DNA of 64,000 nucleotides. Origin: Bradyrhizobium arachidis (GTDB lineage Bacteria; Pseudomonadota; Alphaproteobacteria; Rhizobiales; Xanthobacteraceae). The translations under genes were made by a program, and so were the position numbers. Where the stretch lies: NCBI RefSeq assembly GCF_024758505.1, contig NZ_CP077970.1, forward strand, positions 7,874,001 through 7,938,000, in the 5' to 3' direction. The notes under the pieces were generated by a model. That model ran no database searches and was not told the origin of the DNA. It worked only from the letters and a program-made list of their open reading frames with translations. Positions within the stretch are counted from its first letter, which is position 1. Each line of letters begins with the position of its first letter. Below are positions 24,963 to 44,470 of the stretch, in pieces.

Positions 24963-25694
24963 TTACTTCTTCTTGTCGCCGCCGGCGGGCGCCTTCGCAC
25001 CCGCTGCCGGAGCCGCAGCACCCGCTGCCGGCGCCGCAGCGCCAGCCGCCGGAGCAGCAGCCGCAGGCGCAGCGCCCGGAGCAGCCGCACCGGCTGCAGC
25101 CGCAGCCGCCGCCTTCTGCTCTTCGGCGTAGCCCGAGGGCGGCACGATGGTCACGAGGGTTGCGTCCTCGCGGGTCAGCGCCTTCACGCCGGCGGGGAGG
25201 TTGACGTCCGACAGATGCAGCGAGTGACCGATTTCGAGCTGGCCGACATCGACGTCGATGAACTGCGGAATGCTCTCGACCGAGCATTCGAGCTCGACCG
25301 CATGCGCCACGATGTTGACCGTGCCGCCGCGCTTCACGCCCGGCGAGGCTTCCGACTTCACGACGTGCAGGGGCACGCTGATGCGGATGGTGGCGCCTTC
25401 GCCGAGCCGCATGAAGTCGACATGGATCGGGAAGTCCTTGACCGGGTCGAGGTGGAAGTCGCGCGGAATCACGCGGTGCTTCTTGCCCTCGAGGTCGATG
25501 TCGAACAGGGTGGTCAGGAACCGGCCGGCCAGGATGCGCTGGCGCAGTTCACGATCGTCAACCGAGATCGTGAGCGGGGGCTGGTTGTTTCCATAGATCA
25601 CTCCGGGCACTCTCCCGGCGCGACGCTCTGCCCGGGCGGCCCCCTTGCCGCTCTGCGGACGTGCGGTCGCCTTCAATTCCTTGACGGTCGCCAT
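24963..25694 (-). CDS. rplY: 50S ribosomal protein L25/Ctc with an Ala-Pro-rich tail
   Basis: 243 residues. The N-terminal L25 domain (VKELKATARPQSGKGAARAERRAGRVPGVIYG) binds 5S rRNA; the Ctc-type C-terminal domain ends near VPPSGYAEEQ. Beyond that is a tail of about 50 residues of almost pure Ala/Pro/Gly with a recurring APAAGA unit, closing in GGDKKK. The start is MATVKELK at 25694 after AAGGAC. The frame extends upstream to 25718 without homology. The mRNA leader holds a hairpin at 25725-25745. Confidence 0.96.
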   Translation of the reverse strand: MATVKELKATARPQSGKGAARAERRAGRVPGVIYGNNQPPLTISVDDRELRQRILAGRFLTTLFDIDLEGKKHRVIPRDFHLDPVKDFPIHVDFMRLGEGATIRISVPLHVVKSEASPGVKRGGTVNIVAHAVELECSVESIPQFIDVDVGQLEIGHSLHLSDVNLPAGVKALTREDATLVTIVPPSGYAEEQKAAAAAAAGAAAPGAAPAAAAPAAGAAAPAAGAAAPAAGAKAPAGGDKKK

Positions 25695-40661: not shown

Positions 40662-41525
40662 TTATTTCGCGTTCGCGGCTGCGCGCTGCAGCGCGCGCGT
40701 CACCATGATGCCGCCGACATGCTTTCTGTATTCGACGGGCCCGCGGGCGTCGGCCGCCGGCGCCATGATCGCTTCGGCCGCCGCGGCCGCCTTCGCCAGC
40801 GTGGCCGCGTCGAGGCTGGTGCCGATCACGGCTTTCGCGGCGTCGGTGGCGAGCAGCGGCGTTTCGTGGACGTTGGTGAGCCCGATCGCGCAGGTCGCGA
40901 CCTTGCCGCCCGACATCGTCAGCACGACGGCGGCAGCCGCGGTCGCGTAGTCGCCGACCTTGCGCTTGAGCTTTTCATAGGCGTAGCCGTGGCCGGCGGC
41001 CGGCACGGGCACCGCGACAGAGGTCAGGATCTCGCCGGGCTCGAGCGCGGTGAAATAGGCGCCCTGATAGAAATCGGCCGCGGCGACGTCGCGGGTGCCA
41101 CCGGAACCTTCGAGGCGGTAGCTCGCACCGAGCGTCATCATCAGCGCCGGCATGTCGTTGCCGGGATCGCCATTGGCGACATTGCCGCCGATCGTGCCGC
41201 GGTAGCGCACCTGGGGGTCGGCGATCAGCAGCGCCGCCTCGTGCAGGATGGGAACGGATTTGGCAACCTCCTCGGAGGCCAGCAGATCGTGCTGGGTGGT
41301 CATCGCGCCGATGACCAATTTGTTGCCGTCACGGCGGATGCCCTTCAGCCCGGCGATGCCGTGTAGGTCGATCAGATGAGCCGGGCTTGCAAGCCGCAGC
41401 TTCATCATCGGCACCAGGCTGTGGCCGCCGGCCAATGGCCGGGCATCCTCGCCAAGGTCGGACAACAGTTTGACGGCGTCGGCAACACTCGCCGGCCGGT
41501 GATAGCTGAATGATCCCGGGATCAT
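40662..41525 (-). CDS. coxM: Aerobic carbon monoxide dehydrogenase medium (FAD) subunit
   Basis: 287 residues: [57 protein letters not shown] with the AGGHS FAD loop, and [30 protein letters not shown] with TIGG, both flavin-binding motifs of the family. It delivers electrons to the quinone pool. The start at 41525 follows GGAGGAGACG; the frame continues upstream to 41657 but only as noise. A 376-bp region holding a direct repeat lies between it and coxC. Confidence 0.97.
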
Positions 41526-41699
41526 CGTCTCCTCCCACAATTCGTCCTTGGCGCGTGAAGCGCGGACGTTAACGGGACGGTCTCTCCAGGCGGGGCGGGC
41601 CGCAATCGCTGGGGCACGGAACAGCGGATTTCGCACGAAATGCGGCGATGGGCGCACGAATTGCGTCAGAGGAGACGACCTATGGAGGCGGACTCCGAA
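41526..41699 (-). promoter_or_regulatory. Upstream region of coxM with a 21-bp-period direct repeat (candidate CoxC operator)
   Basis: Read towards coxM, CGCAATTCGTGCG (41665-41653) and CGCATTTCGTGCG (41644-41632) are direct repeats identical in 12 of 13 bases, 21 bp apart from start to start, that is two turns of the helix. LytTR-family regulators bind pairs of direct repeats with this period; CoxC, encoded next door, is a LytTR protein. The repeat lies about 107-140 bp before the coxM ATG, suited to an activator site. A -10/-35 could not be placed with confidence. Confidence 0.55.
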
Positions 41700-41880
41700 G
41701 CTTACCCTCCCCTGGAGGGGGAGGGTCGCTTTGCATGAAGCGAAGCGCAGTGCGAAGCGGGGTGGGGTGATCTCTCCACACGGGCAGCGTTCGTCGCGGA
41801 GAGACCGTCACCCCACCCCGTCTCATGTCTCGCTCCGCTCAACACGAGCCGACCCTCCCCCTCCAGGGGAGGGTAAGGGG
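41700..41880. repeat. Long composite palindrome between coxC and coxM
   Basis: The outer arms TTACCCTCCCCTGGAGGGGG (from 41702) and CCCCCTCCAGGGGAGGGTAA (to 41876) are reverse complements; the next inner arms are GGGGTGGGGTGATCTCTCC and GGAGAGACCGTCACCCCACCCC. The end sequence recurs alone at 13438-13464. Transcribed through from coxC it would give a very stable hairpin, so coxC and coxM may be separate transcripts, or coxC read-through may be limited. Confidence 0.85.
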
Positions 41881-41901: not shown

Positions 41902-43107
41902 CTAAGCGTGCCGCCGATTGGCAAGCCCCAGCCTCGCCTTGACCTCGGCGATCTTGGCGCGGCTCACGGGCACCCTATGCGGCGACGGGCCGTCGAGCTC
42001 GAGAATGGCACCGTCGCCCTCCTTGCGGACCAGGGCGACATGGGGGATCGCGACGATGTGGCTGCGATGCACCCGGATGAACAGCGAGGGGTCGAGCTGC
42101 GCCTCGGCTTCCGAGATCGACCACGGACACATCCGCTCGCGGGTGCCGTCATGCACCCTTGTGTAATGGGCGTCGGCGCGGACGCTGCGCACATCCGCCG
42201 TATCAATGAAGTGCGTGCCATCGGCGCCCTCGACCGGCAGCCGTGGAGCGGGCGCGGCGCGCGGCGGCTGGCCGATGCCGCCGAGCGGGGCCGGCACCGG
42301 CCGGGGTGACGCGACCGCCTGCGGAACCGGCTCCGCGACCAGCATGTCCGGTGGAGCGGACGCGCCGGCCATCGCCGGCACCAGCGTCTGCCGCCGCGGG
42401 TCGGGCACCAGCGAAAGCAAAAAGCCCGCCGCGATCACGAAGCAGAGCAAGGCGACGACGATGGAGAGGATTTGCTGCGACGCGGCGAGGCTGCCGCCGA
42501 GATGGTGGTGGACCTGTCCCGCCAGCGGCACGAAGTGCATGCCGTGCATCGCGGTGTAGTGCATGCCGGAGACGGCGACGCCAAAGGCGATCGAGCTCAC
42601 GATCAGGCGAACGCCTTCCTGCTGCGCGAGAAACGCACGCAAGCCGCCATAGGCGGTGACGATCGCGACCAGGACAGAGAGCAAAATCATCGATCCGTCG
42701 TGCTCGATGGCGAACGGGCCGGCCAGACCGTGGATCCCGACATAGTGCATGCTGGTGATGCCGGCGCCGAGCAGCACGGCCGACGACACCACCCGCTTCA
42801 GCGAAGGCTCTCCGATCGACACGAAGAACAGGGAGATGCCGACCACCAGCGCGCAGATCAGAAACGAGATGATGGTGGGCAGGAGCAAATAGACGGTGTC
42901 AGAAGGTAGCGGCGCGGCCAGCATGCCGACGAAATGCATGGTCCAGATACCGACAGCCAGGAACGCGGCCGCGCCCGCGAGCAGCATTCGATTGCTGACG
43001 CCGGGCGTGTTGCGGATGCGAGCCGCAAGCGCAAATCCGGTATAGCCACCCAGGCTCGCAATCGCCACCGAGAGCGCGACGAGATAGGGATCGTGTCCTT
43101 CGAACAT
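41902..43107 (-). CDS. coxC: MHYT-LytTR membrane transcription regulator CoxC
   Basis: 401 residues. The N-terminal part has seven membrane helices with three MHYT-type repeats: WTMHFVGML, ITSMHYVGIHG and SGMHYTAMHGMHF, whose Met/His are thought to bind a metal and sense O2, CO or NO. A Pro/Ala-rich linker (about 245-290) leads to a C-terminal LytTR DNA-binding domain (THFIDTADVRSVRADAHYTRVHDG ... FIRVHRSHIVAIPHVALVRKEGDGAILEL). In O. carboxidovorans CoxC has the same build and precedes coxM. It is likely a membrane-bound regulator responding to CO. Confidence 0.92.
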   Translation of the reverse strand: MFEGHDPYLVALSVAIASLGGYTGFALAARIRNTPGVSNRMLLAGAAAFLAVGIWTMHFVGMLAAPLPSDTVYLLLPTIISFLICALVVGISLFFVSIGEPSLKRVVSSAVLLGAGITSMHYVGIHGLAGPFAIEHDGSMILLSVLVAIVTAYGGLRAFLAQQEGVRLIVSSIAFGVAVSGMHYTAMHGMHFVPLAGQVHHHLGGSLAASQQILSIVVALLCFVIAAGFLLSLVPDPRRQTLVPAMAGASAPPDMLVAEPVPQAVASPRPVPAPLGGIGQPPRAAPAPRLPVEGADGTHFIDTADVRSVRADAHYTRVHDGTRERMCPWSISEAEAQLDPSLFIRVHRSHIVAIPHVALVRKEGDGAILELDGPSPHRVPVSRAKIAEVKARLGLANRRHA

Positions 43108-43145
43108 GATCTTGCCGACCGGTCCGTCTCCACGGCCCGGCCTCC

Positions 43146-43179
43146 TCCCGCCGCCGAGTTTATCAACGCGGCGGCGGGA
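43146..43179. promoter_or_regulatory. GC-rich inverted repeat between ribH and coxC
   Basis: TCCCGCCGCC at 43146-43155 pairs with GGCGGCGGGA at 43170-43179 around a 14-nt loop containing GAGTTTATCAACGC. It stands 30 bp after the ribH stop and 38 bp before the coxC start (minus strand). It could stop ribH transcription, but there is no U-run. Not further interpretable. Confidence 0.5.
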
Positions 43180-43209
43180 TTGACAATCAGCGGTGAGAGA
43201 AAGACGCCG

Positions 43210-43791
43210 CTACACAATCCCCGCTGCGACCTGGCCGCGCAGGCGCTCTAGCCCGTGCAGCGTGTTGGCGCAGGCTTCCGCGACCTCGACGCCCTTGATC
43301 GCAAAATGCTTGCGGAAGAAATCGTAGTGCACCTCGGTCTCGTGGAATTGCTGCGGCGTCAGCACCGCAGAGAACACCGGCACCTCGGTGCGCAACTGCA
43401 CGTCCATCAGCGCCTTGATGACGGTGTCGGCGACGAACTCATGACGGTAGATGCCGCCATCGACCACGAGGCCCGCCGCCACGATCGCGGTGTAGCGCCG
43501 CGTCTTGGCGAGGATCTGCGCGTGCAGCGGGATCTCGAACGAGCCCGGCACCTCGAAGACGTCGACATGAGTAAGGTGCCGCGCCTCGGCCTCCCTGAGG
43601 AAGGCAATGCGCGCCTCCCGGACGACGTCGTGGTGCCAGCAGGCCTCGACGAAGGCGACCCGCTGCGGCTTTGCAAAGCGCGGATGCTCTCGCAGCGGCG
43701 GCGGCTCAGGTGGAACCGGCGGCGGCTGGGTTTGCTGAGAAGTCTCGACTTGGGAGTTTTCGACTTGGGGGTCTTGCAACATCTGATTCAT
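43210..43791 (-). CDS. ribH: 6,7-dimethyl-8-ribityllumazine synthase, type II
   Basis: 193 residues. After a 35-residue Gln/Pro-rich head (QTQPPPVPPEPPPLREHPRF) comes the catalytic core: RVAFVEACWHHDVVREARIAFLREAEAR, EVPGSFEIPLHAQILAKT (active-site GSFEIP), AAGLVVDGGIYRHEFVADTVIKALMDVQLRTEVPVFSAVLTPQQFHE. The H-E-F-V-A ring motif and the sequence YRHEF instead of the usual GET-HFE point to the RibH2/type II (decameric) enzymes of Rhizobiales and Brucella. It forms lumazine from a pyrimidine and a butanone phosphate. An FMN riboswitch precedes it. Confidence 0.95.
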   Translation of the reverse strand: MNQMLQDPQVENSQVETSQQTQPPPVPPEPPPLREHPRFAKPQRVAFVEACWHHDVVREARIAFLREAEARHLTHVDVFEVPGSFEIPLHAQILAKTRRYTAIVAAGLVVDGGIYRHEFVADTVIKALMDVQLRTEVPVFSAVLTPQQFHETEVHYDFFRKHFAIKGVEVAEACANTLHGLERLRGQVAAGIV

Positions 43792-43869: not shown

Positions 43870-44026
43870 GACCGTTCTCTTTCATCCGGACTTTAACCGT
43901 CGGCTTCGGAGTTGCACCGAATCTGCTGACCCTTCCCTTCGGGAGATTCCCTCGAAGAAGGCGCTCGCGGGCTTGGATCTTGCGACCCTTACCGCCGGTG
44001 GGGACTTTCACCCCGCCCTGAGAACA
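43870..44026 (-). ncRNA. FMN riboswitch (RFN element) upstream of ribH
   Basis: In the sense of ribH the sequence opens AGGGCGGGGTGAAAGTCCC, CACCGGCGGTA, then a variable stem, GGTCAGCAGATTCGGTG, CAACTCCGAAGCCGACGG, TTAAAGTCCGGATGAAAGAG and AAC. These are the conserved blocks of the RFN element in order and with almost no deviation. On binding FMN it turns off expression of flavin genes. ribH is the only gene behind it on this strand before coxC. Confidence 0.97.
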
Positions 44027-44470
44027 TCGGCCGTTCGGAATGAACGACCTGGAAGGAAATATGACGCCGGGGAACAGCCACAGCAAGCTCCTTGCGCATG
44101 GGGAAATCGCATAGGACCATGCGGCCGAGGCGATCCAGCCTCCATGGAACCGAATTTCGGGGCGCCGTTAACGGTTGCGCCGAGCCCCTCAATCCGATTC
44201 CGGTTTGTTCTCAAATTAATAATTATGACCGAGATGAGCTGTGGACGAGCCGGCCATGGCTTGTGGACGGACTCGCGACCCAGTTGCGCTGATTCCGCAA
44301 ATCACATCACTTGATCCCCGACAGCCCGCGCTGATCCGAGGGATCGCAAGAGCGACCCTGAGGGGACCGCCGAAGCGACTCCGAGGGGACCGCGTCGCGA
44401 CGAAGGGAGCGCGCGCCGGGCCAACCGCGTGCGTATCAAGGACAACAAGAAGGCAAGAGGTCGAGACGGC
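44027..44470. other. Intergenic region between ribH riboswitch and YbjN gene, no gene seen
   Basis: The 444 bp contain no open frame with recognisable protein similarity; long overlapping frames here are shadows of one another. CTCAAATTAATAATTATGACC near 44210 is the most AT-rich spot and could hold the divergent promoters for the riboswitch-ribH unit (minus) and the YbjN gene (plus). No promoter is placed. Confidence 0.4.

Follow-up and report, generated by a model that had tools for sequence, protein, structure and literature searches.

A conserved three-half-site array upstream of coxM as a predicted operator of the MHYT-LytTR regulator CoxC in Bradyrhizobium arachidis

An array of three direct half-sites stands before coxM in a 64,000-nt stretch of the Bradyrhizobium arachidis genome (hereafter the window), and it is most probably the operator, of a kind already described, of the neighboring regulator CoxC. 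This prediction is made because the array is unique in its genome, because it is confined to CoxC-carrying genomes when searched with a strict pattern, and because a matrix built from related arrays finds PcoxB, the known CoxC target of Afipia carboxidovorans OM5. By oxidizing CO aerobically, soil bacteria act as a sink for the atmospheric gas, which is why the switching of the cox genes matters. The conserved array provides a precise operator consensus, with the coxM promoter as its constant target in the loci examined. New here are the third half-site, the constant place of the array at coxM, its phasing with a putative promoter, an adjoining dyad and, in OM5, two additional predicted arrays.

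The array and its surroundings are laid out as follows (positions in the window):

43870-44029, minus strand: FMN riboswitch upstream of a putative ribH, the gene preceding coxC
41902-43107, minus strand: coxC, encoding the MHYT-LytTR regulator (401 aa; three Pfam MHYT stretches and a LytTR domain at 297-393)
41699-41880, no strand assigned: palindromic element in the coxC-array gap, a repeated sequence whose 70-nt arms are 77% complementary
41653-41665, minus strand in the cox sense: half-site S1, CGCAATTCGTGCG (plus strand CGCACGAATTGCG), distal to coxM
41632-41644, minus strand in the cox sense: half-site S2, CGCATTTCGTGCG (plus strand CGCACGAAATGCG), 21 bp after S1
41613-41625, minus strand: half-site S3, GCTGTTCCGTGCC, 19 bp after S2 and weaker
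40662-41525, minus strand: coxM, medium subunit, the first gene after the array (FAD_binding_5 and CO_deh_flav_C)

In the window coxC is followed by coxM, coxS and coxL, so that the CoxC regulator is encoded beside the cox genes. The coxL translation contains AYRCSFR, which we take to be the form I signature, and the gene upstream of coxC is presumably ribH. A structure search with the LytTR domain returned one weak match (3d6w, E 0.0015) and no DNA complex. The palindromic element has 81 matches in its own genome, both strands and fragments counted.

Two of the half-sites had been reported in an initial annotation of this DNA as a pair of 13-mers, identical in 12 of 13 positions, with 21-bp spacing, 107-140 bp upstream of the coxM ATG (41525-41523), and this pair was confirmed. 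As a description of the operator, however, two repeats fall short: the conserved array has three half-sites, and S3 had been overlooked, as had the promoter-like element and the dyad described below. Pairs of 13 bp with at most one mismatch and a period of 20-22 bp start at 16 positions in the window, 12 of them in a single cluster near 25000, while the same count in ten Markov shuffles of the window was 0-1 each. Taken alone, the S1-S2 pair stands out only slightly, and the case is decided by its uniqueness and conservation. In the 9,429,272-bp genome there is a single exact match to the two-site pattern (gap 6-10) and still a single match when up to three mismatches are allowed at gap 8, with backwards controls of 0 in both searches; no further two-site array was found in this genome at up to three mismatches.

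If the repeat had arisen by chance, or as a remnant of the end of the coxC coding sequence, the comparable pairs elsewhere in the window would be unsurprising, as would the 10 of 93 loci in which S1 directly follows the coxC stop. In the window, however, coxC ends 236 bp before S1 and the palindromic repeat element lies in that gap. Together with the single occurrence in the genome and the conservation across 93 loci, this makes either origin of the repeat extremely improbable.

Conservation was assessed across loci taken from the best 80 of 250 CoxC relatives, from five plasmid records and from genomes of the family. The first two sources gave 85 loci (L002-L086), of which L012, L047, L064 and L084 were dropped for having no coxM in the stretch. 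Genome searches added 11 (L103, L109, L111, L113 and L115-L121) after exclusion of duplicates, reverse-oriented loci and loci without coxM, giving n=93 with the window. Close kin dominate this set, since only the best 80 of 250 relatives were taken. S1 was defined as the position with the highest score in its locus, and S2 and S3 were picked among two and three offsets, respectively. Because the positions were selected in this way, the following conservation values are inflated: S1 is exactly CGCANTTCGTGC in 72/93 loci, the S2 core [TC][CG]GTG is present in 89/93, and the S3 position keeps GTG in 91/93, with the CGCA arm missing. The genome-wide and matrix checks given below are independent of that choice.

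With few exceptions, the three-half-site array is found before coxM in all 93 loci, at 127-227 bp as measured from S1. The S1-S2 and S2-S3 spacings are 21/19 in 75 loci, 20/20 in 10, 21/20 in 6 and other in 2. The exceptions are L068, L072 and L080, which represent one sequence type, together with L086 and L116; the OM5-like loci L117-L119 appear by eye to have a fourth half-site. Comparison of coxC-coxM intergenic regions had been proposed as a check on the repeat, and both the half-sites and their spacing proved to be conserved. In the 28 loci with at least 82% CoxC identity, the distance from S1 to coxM is nearly constant (137-148 bp) while that from the coxC stop to S1 varies from 23 to 253 bp, indicating that the array goes with coxM.

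Of 248 genomes of the family, 12 contain the strict pattern CGCANTTCGTGC-N9-CGCANTTCGTG with at most one mismatch (backwards control 0). Each of these belongs to the 42/248 genomes with a CoxC match (E 1e-40), and the 206 without one yielded none (Fisher p 1.3e-10, kinship ignored). Ten of the twelve strict-pattern loci were fetched, and all ten proved to carry both coxC and coxM; in the remaining genomes (G169 and G244) the site lies beside coxC by coordinates. A looser three-site pattern was rejected as unspecific: CoxC is present in 8 of the 14/248 genomes that it matched and missing from the other 6 (backwards control 1), and cox genes were present at 6/10 of its matches fetched as loci and absent at 4/10. 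A control using cox clusters without CoxC says little here, since CoxC, too, is matched in 39 of the 41 coxL-matching genomes.

A related pattern gave 7 matches in 385 genomes of the class (backwards control 0); CoxC was searched in the six with matches. The own genome and three genomes of one family (L157-L159) have the match between coxC and coxM, and in these three genomes two half-sites are kept at a CoxC identity of only 28-31%. At L154-L156 both coxC and coxM are absent nearby, and these matches are probably due to chance. Among the class genomes with a pattern match, G542 and G539 match CoxC in the MHYT part only and G563 has no CoxC match.

A target of CoxC has been determined experimentally in OM5, whose CoxC is ~40% identical to that of the window. 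As described in PMC11347149 (2024), three TTNNNGCN repeats in PcoxB serve as the binding site of the OM5 CoxC LytTR domain, based on EMSA, mutants and lacZ fusions. The initial annotation had regarded the CoxC binding site as undescribed, and this paper shows otherwise. Both S1 and S2 contain TTCGTGCG, which fits TTNNNGCN fully and fits the RcoM1 motif TTCNNGCA at 5/6 specified positions; measured against these published motifs, the idea of a new specificity fails. S3 (TTCCGTGC / TCCGTGCC) has no exact fit to either motif, and no TTNNNGCN match occurs on the cox strand in the 43101-43300 region directly upstream of coxC.

A matrix was trained on 72 distinct arrays, with the window excluded along with every locus whose CoxC identity falls below 60% (OM5 among them), and was used to scan both strands of the OM5 plasmid pHCG3 (265,974 positions). 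The top three positions lie between coxH and coxI (17.0), at PcoxB (15.2) and between coxC and coxM (11.7). No other position scores above 0: the fourth-ranked reaches -0.2, and six shuffles reach at most 2.2. Since an OM5-free matrix ranks PcoxB second on pHCG3, the consensus from the relatives of the window finds the known CoxC target. The coxH-coxI array of OM5 (L082, 24424) has a counterpart in a relative, G154 (L160, 5270; score 19.8), and both sit just behind a second MHYT-LytTR gene.

These results bear on what protein reads the array. S1 and S2 are each an imperfect inverted repeat (CGCA-N5-TGCG), and a dimeric factor might read each 13-mer as a small dyad; alternatively, a different LytTR regulator might bind. 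We consider another binder improbable, since S3 keeps its GTG without the CGCA arm, the strict pattern is tied to CoxC, and the consensus finds the CoxC-bound PcoxB. The initial annotation had assigned the site to the LytTR protein encoded next to it, and the conservation of the array, its tie to CoxC genomes and the recovery of PcoxB by the matrix support this assignment, which is very probably correct. CoxC is thus expected to bind the array in B. arachidis as well.

The matrix half-sites at PcoxB are CGCAGTTCATGCG, CGCCGTTGGTGGA and AGTCGTTTGGGCA, 21 and 20 bp apart, whereas the published repeats TTACCGCC, TTTGGGCA and TTGCGGCA, located from the primers given in the paper and the plasmid sequence, have starts 29 and 26 bp apart. 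Only the last matrix half-site coincides with one of these published repeats. This suggests that the published PcoxB operator may have another register, of 21/20 bp. Among the stretches of ten relatives and L083, coxB was found in one (G154, 91% identical). Between G154 and OM5, conservation upstream of coxB starts at the proposed S1, with TTCATGC and TTGGTGG unchanged, and published repeat 1 reads CCACCGCA in G154. Counter to the new register, published repeats 2 and 3 in G154 (TTTAGGCG and TTGCGGCA) still fit TTNNNGCN, the proposed third PcoxB half-site is without GTG, and the matrix scan of G154 PcoxB does not rise above 4. The published mutant data do not separate the two registers, because the repeat 1 substitution also alters one base of the proposed S2.

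Downstream of S3, two putative promoter elements were recognized in the window:

41600-41605, minus strand: candidate -35-like element TTGCGG, 7 bp after S3
41577-41582, minus strand: candidate -10-like element GACCGT, separated from the -35-like element by N17

Transcription of coxM would then be expected to start near 41570. A literature search for a mapped coxM transcription start found none; older papers reportedly mapped transcription starts. Across the loci, TTG follows S3 at 7 bp in 54/93 and at 18-19 bp in 35/93, with both in none; the four loci outside these classes are L117-L119, which appear to have four half-sites (26-28 bp), and L086. Further TTGs occur in some loci, e.g. at 14 bp in 7 loci; when the TTG was picked by -10 quality instead, 87/93 loci had it at 7 or 18-19 bp. 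At N17, the consensus [CG]A[GC]C[CG]T has A-11 in 85% and T-7 in 84% of 89 loci. This A/T pair is present in 45/54 and 28/35 loci of the two classes, versus 4-5% in shifted frames, and 19/54 loci of the 7-bp class also have the pair 11 bp further on. On a CoxC tree built by a quick method and with many open forks, the two distance states need 7 changes, and well-supported branches force 4-5. Reading the TTGC after S3 as a sigma-54 promoter was rejected by eye, as there is no GG at the right distance. A 12-mer in the loop of the palindromic element (41798-41809) is fully complementary to 41576-41587, a segment at the -10-like element.

The arrangement suggests how CoxC could act. CoxC would combine a membrane-bound MHYT domain, as CO sensor, with a LytTR domain for DNA binding. 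Its LytTR domains may lie side by side on the three direct half-sites, about two helical turns apart, with cores TTCGTGC, TTCGTGC and a weaker CCGTGCC. The -35-like element of the coxM promoter would lie 7 bp beyond the end of the array, and binding of CoxC, set by CO, would decide transcription of coxM and the downstream cox genes.

Of the two possible signs of this control, activation at coxM is slightly favored over repression, since the array precedes the -35-like element and is helically phased with it, and since the coxM -10-like element is far from TATAAT. The two array-TTG distances differ by one helical turn, which suggests that the regulator and RNA polymerase sit on one face of the DNA, as with an activator. 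CoxC could instead bind and repress, with coxM blocked without CO and released with CO. This is a real contender, if at somewhat less than an even chance: in the only CoxC experiment (PMC11347149), CoxC represses PcoxB in E. coli, and CO relieves this repression, with copper required. That operator is said there to overlap the -35. Against repression at coxM, a gap of 7 or 18-19 bp, two distances one helical turn apart, separates the array from the -35-like element, and in the window, too, the array and the putative -35 do not overlap. In OM5 PcoxB, inspection by eye shows TTGATG at 7 bp from the proposed S3, followed at N18 by TATCGT, a stronger -10 than that of coxM. The choice between repressor and activator becomes a simple reporter test.

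A more speculative proposal, to which we give only tentative credence, is that CoxC works in two ways. At the coxM array, with its weak, phased promoter, it might activate as RcoM1 does, while repression of PcoxB, which lies ahead of coxB and coxC in OM5, might represent autoregulation; OM5 would then have three arrays, before coxB, coxM and coxI, and a second factor might read the dyad. Of these three arrays, the accessible portion of PMC11347149 treats one.

This dyad adjoins S1 on the coxC side:

41665-41679, minus strand: dyad GTCGT-CTCCT-CTGAC, one base of which also belongs to S1 (consensus GTCAG-N5-CTGAC)

GTC-N9-GAC is kept in 74/93 loci. In the 70 loci whose coxC stop lies at least 15 bp before S1, it is kept in 57, and at least 3/5 dyad pairs are present in 65, versus 14% of 8370 shifted windows. 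The dyad is thus conserved also where the sequence is non-coding. By eye it was not seen at PcoxB or in L086, nor whole in L157-L159. A LysR-type box has T-N11-A in an interrupted dyad, and T-N11-A is present at this position in 78/93 loci. The form would fit such a box, but no LysR gene adjoins coxC in the annotated regions examined; in one of them the single LysR gene is about 12 kb away, behind coxC.

AgrA is a response regulator, and AgrA-type LytTR operators differ from the array in having two half-sites and another core sequence. They share with it the direct-repeat arrangement, given in PMC11347149 as 9-bp repeats 10-13 bp apart. The RcoM1 operator of the cox genes in Paraburkholderia xenovorans LB400 has three direct repeats upstream of the -35 and shares its core and its period with the array; the same source describes three 8-bp repeats TTCNNGCA with 12-13 bp between them. 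RcoM1, as presented there, is a soluble activator that senses CO by haem, whereas CoxC has a membrane MHYT sensor. With the PcoxB operator the array shares the regulator architecture, three direct half-sites fitting TTNNNGCN and the form I cox cluster; it differs in standing before coxM rather than coxB and in its spacing (19-21 bp versus 26 and 29 bp as published). The array thus has the traits of CoxC/RcoM-type operators in its motif fit (S1/S2), its three direct repeats and its spacing of about two helical turns, 21/19 bp in most loci beside the 20-21 bp of RcoM1.

Several records in the locus collection are unusual. L039, titled Frankia sp. RB7, has a Bradyrhizobium-like coxC-coxM locus with 86% CoxC identity and is probably mislabelled or from a mixed assembly. 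L068, L072 and L080, titled Aminobacter, Mesorhizobium and Roseovarius, have nearly identical CoxC and a common array variant, which may reflect recent transfer or mislabelled bins. L084, from a Sinorhizobium meliloti BL225C plasmid, has no coxM within 4 kb downstream, yet its array, which accompanies a relative of coxC, is a good one (score 44.5).
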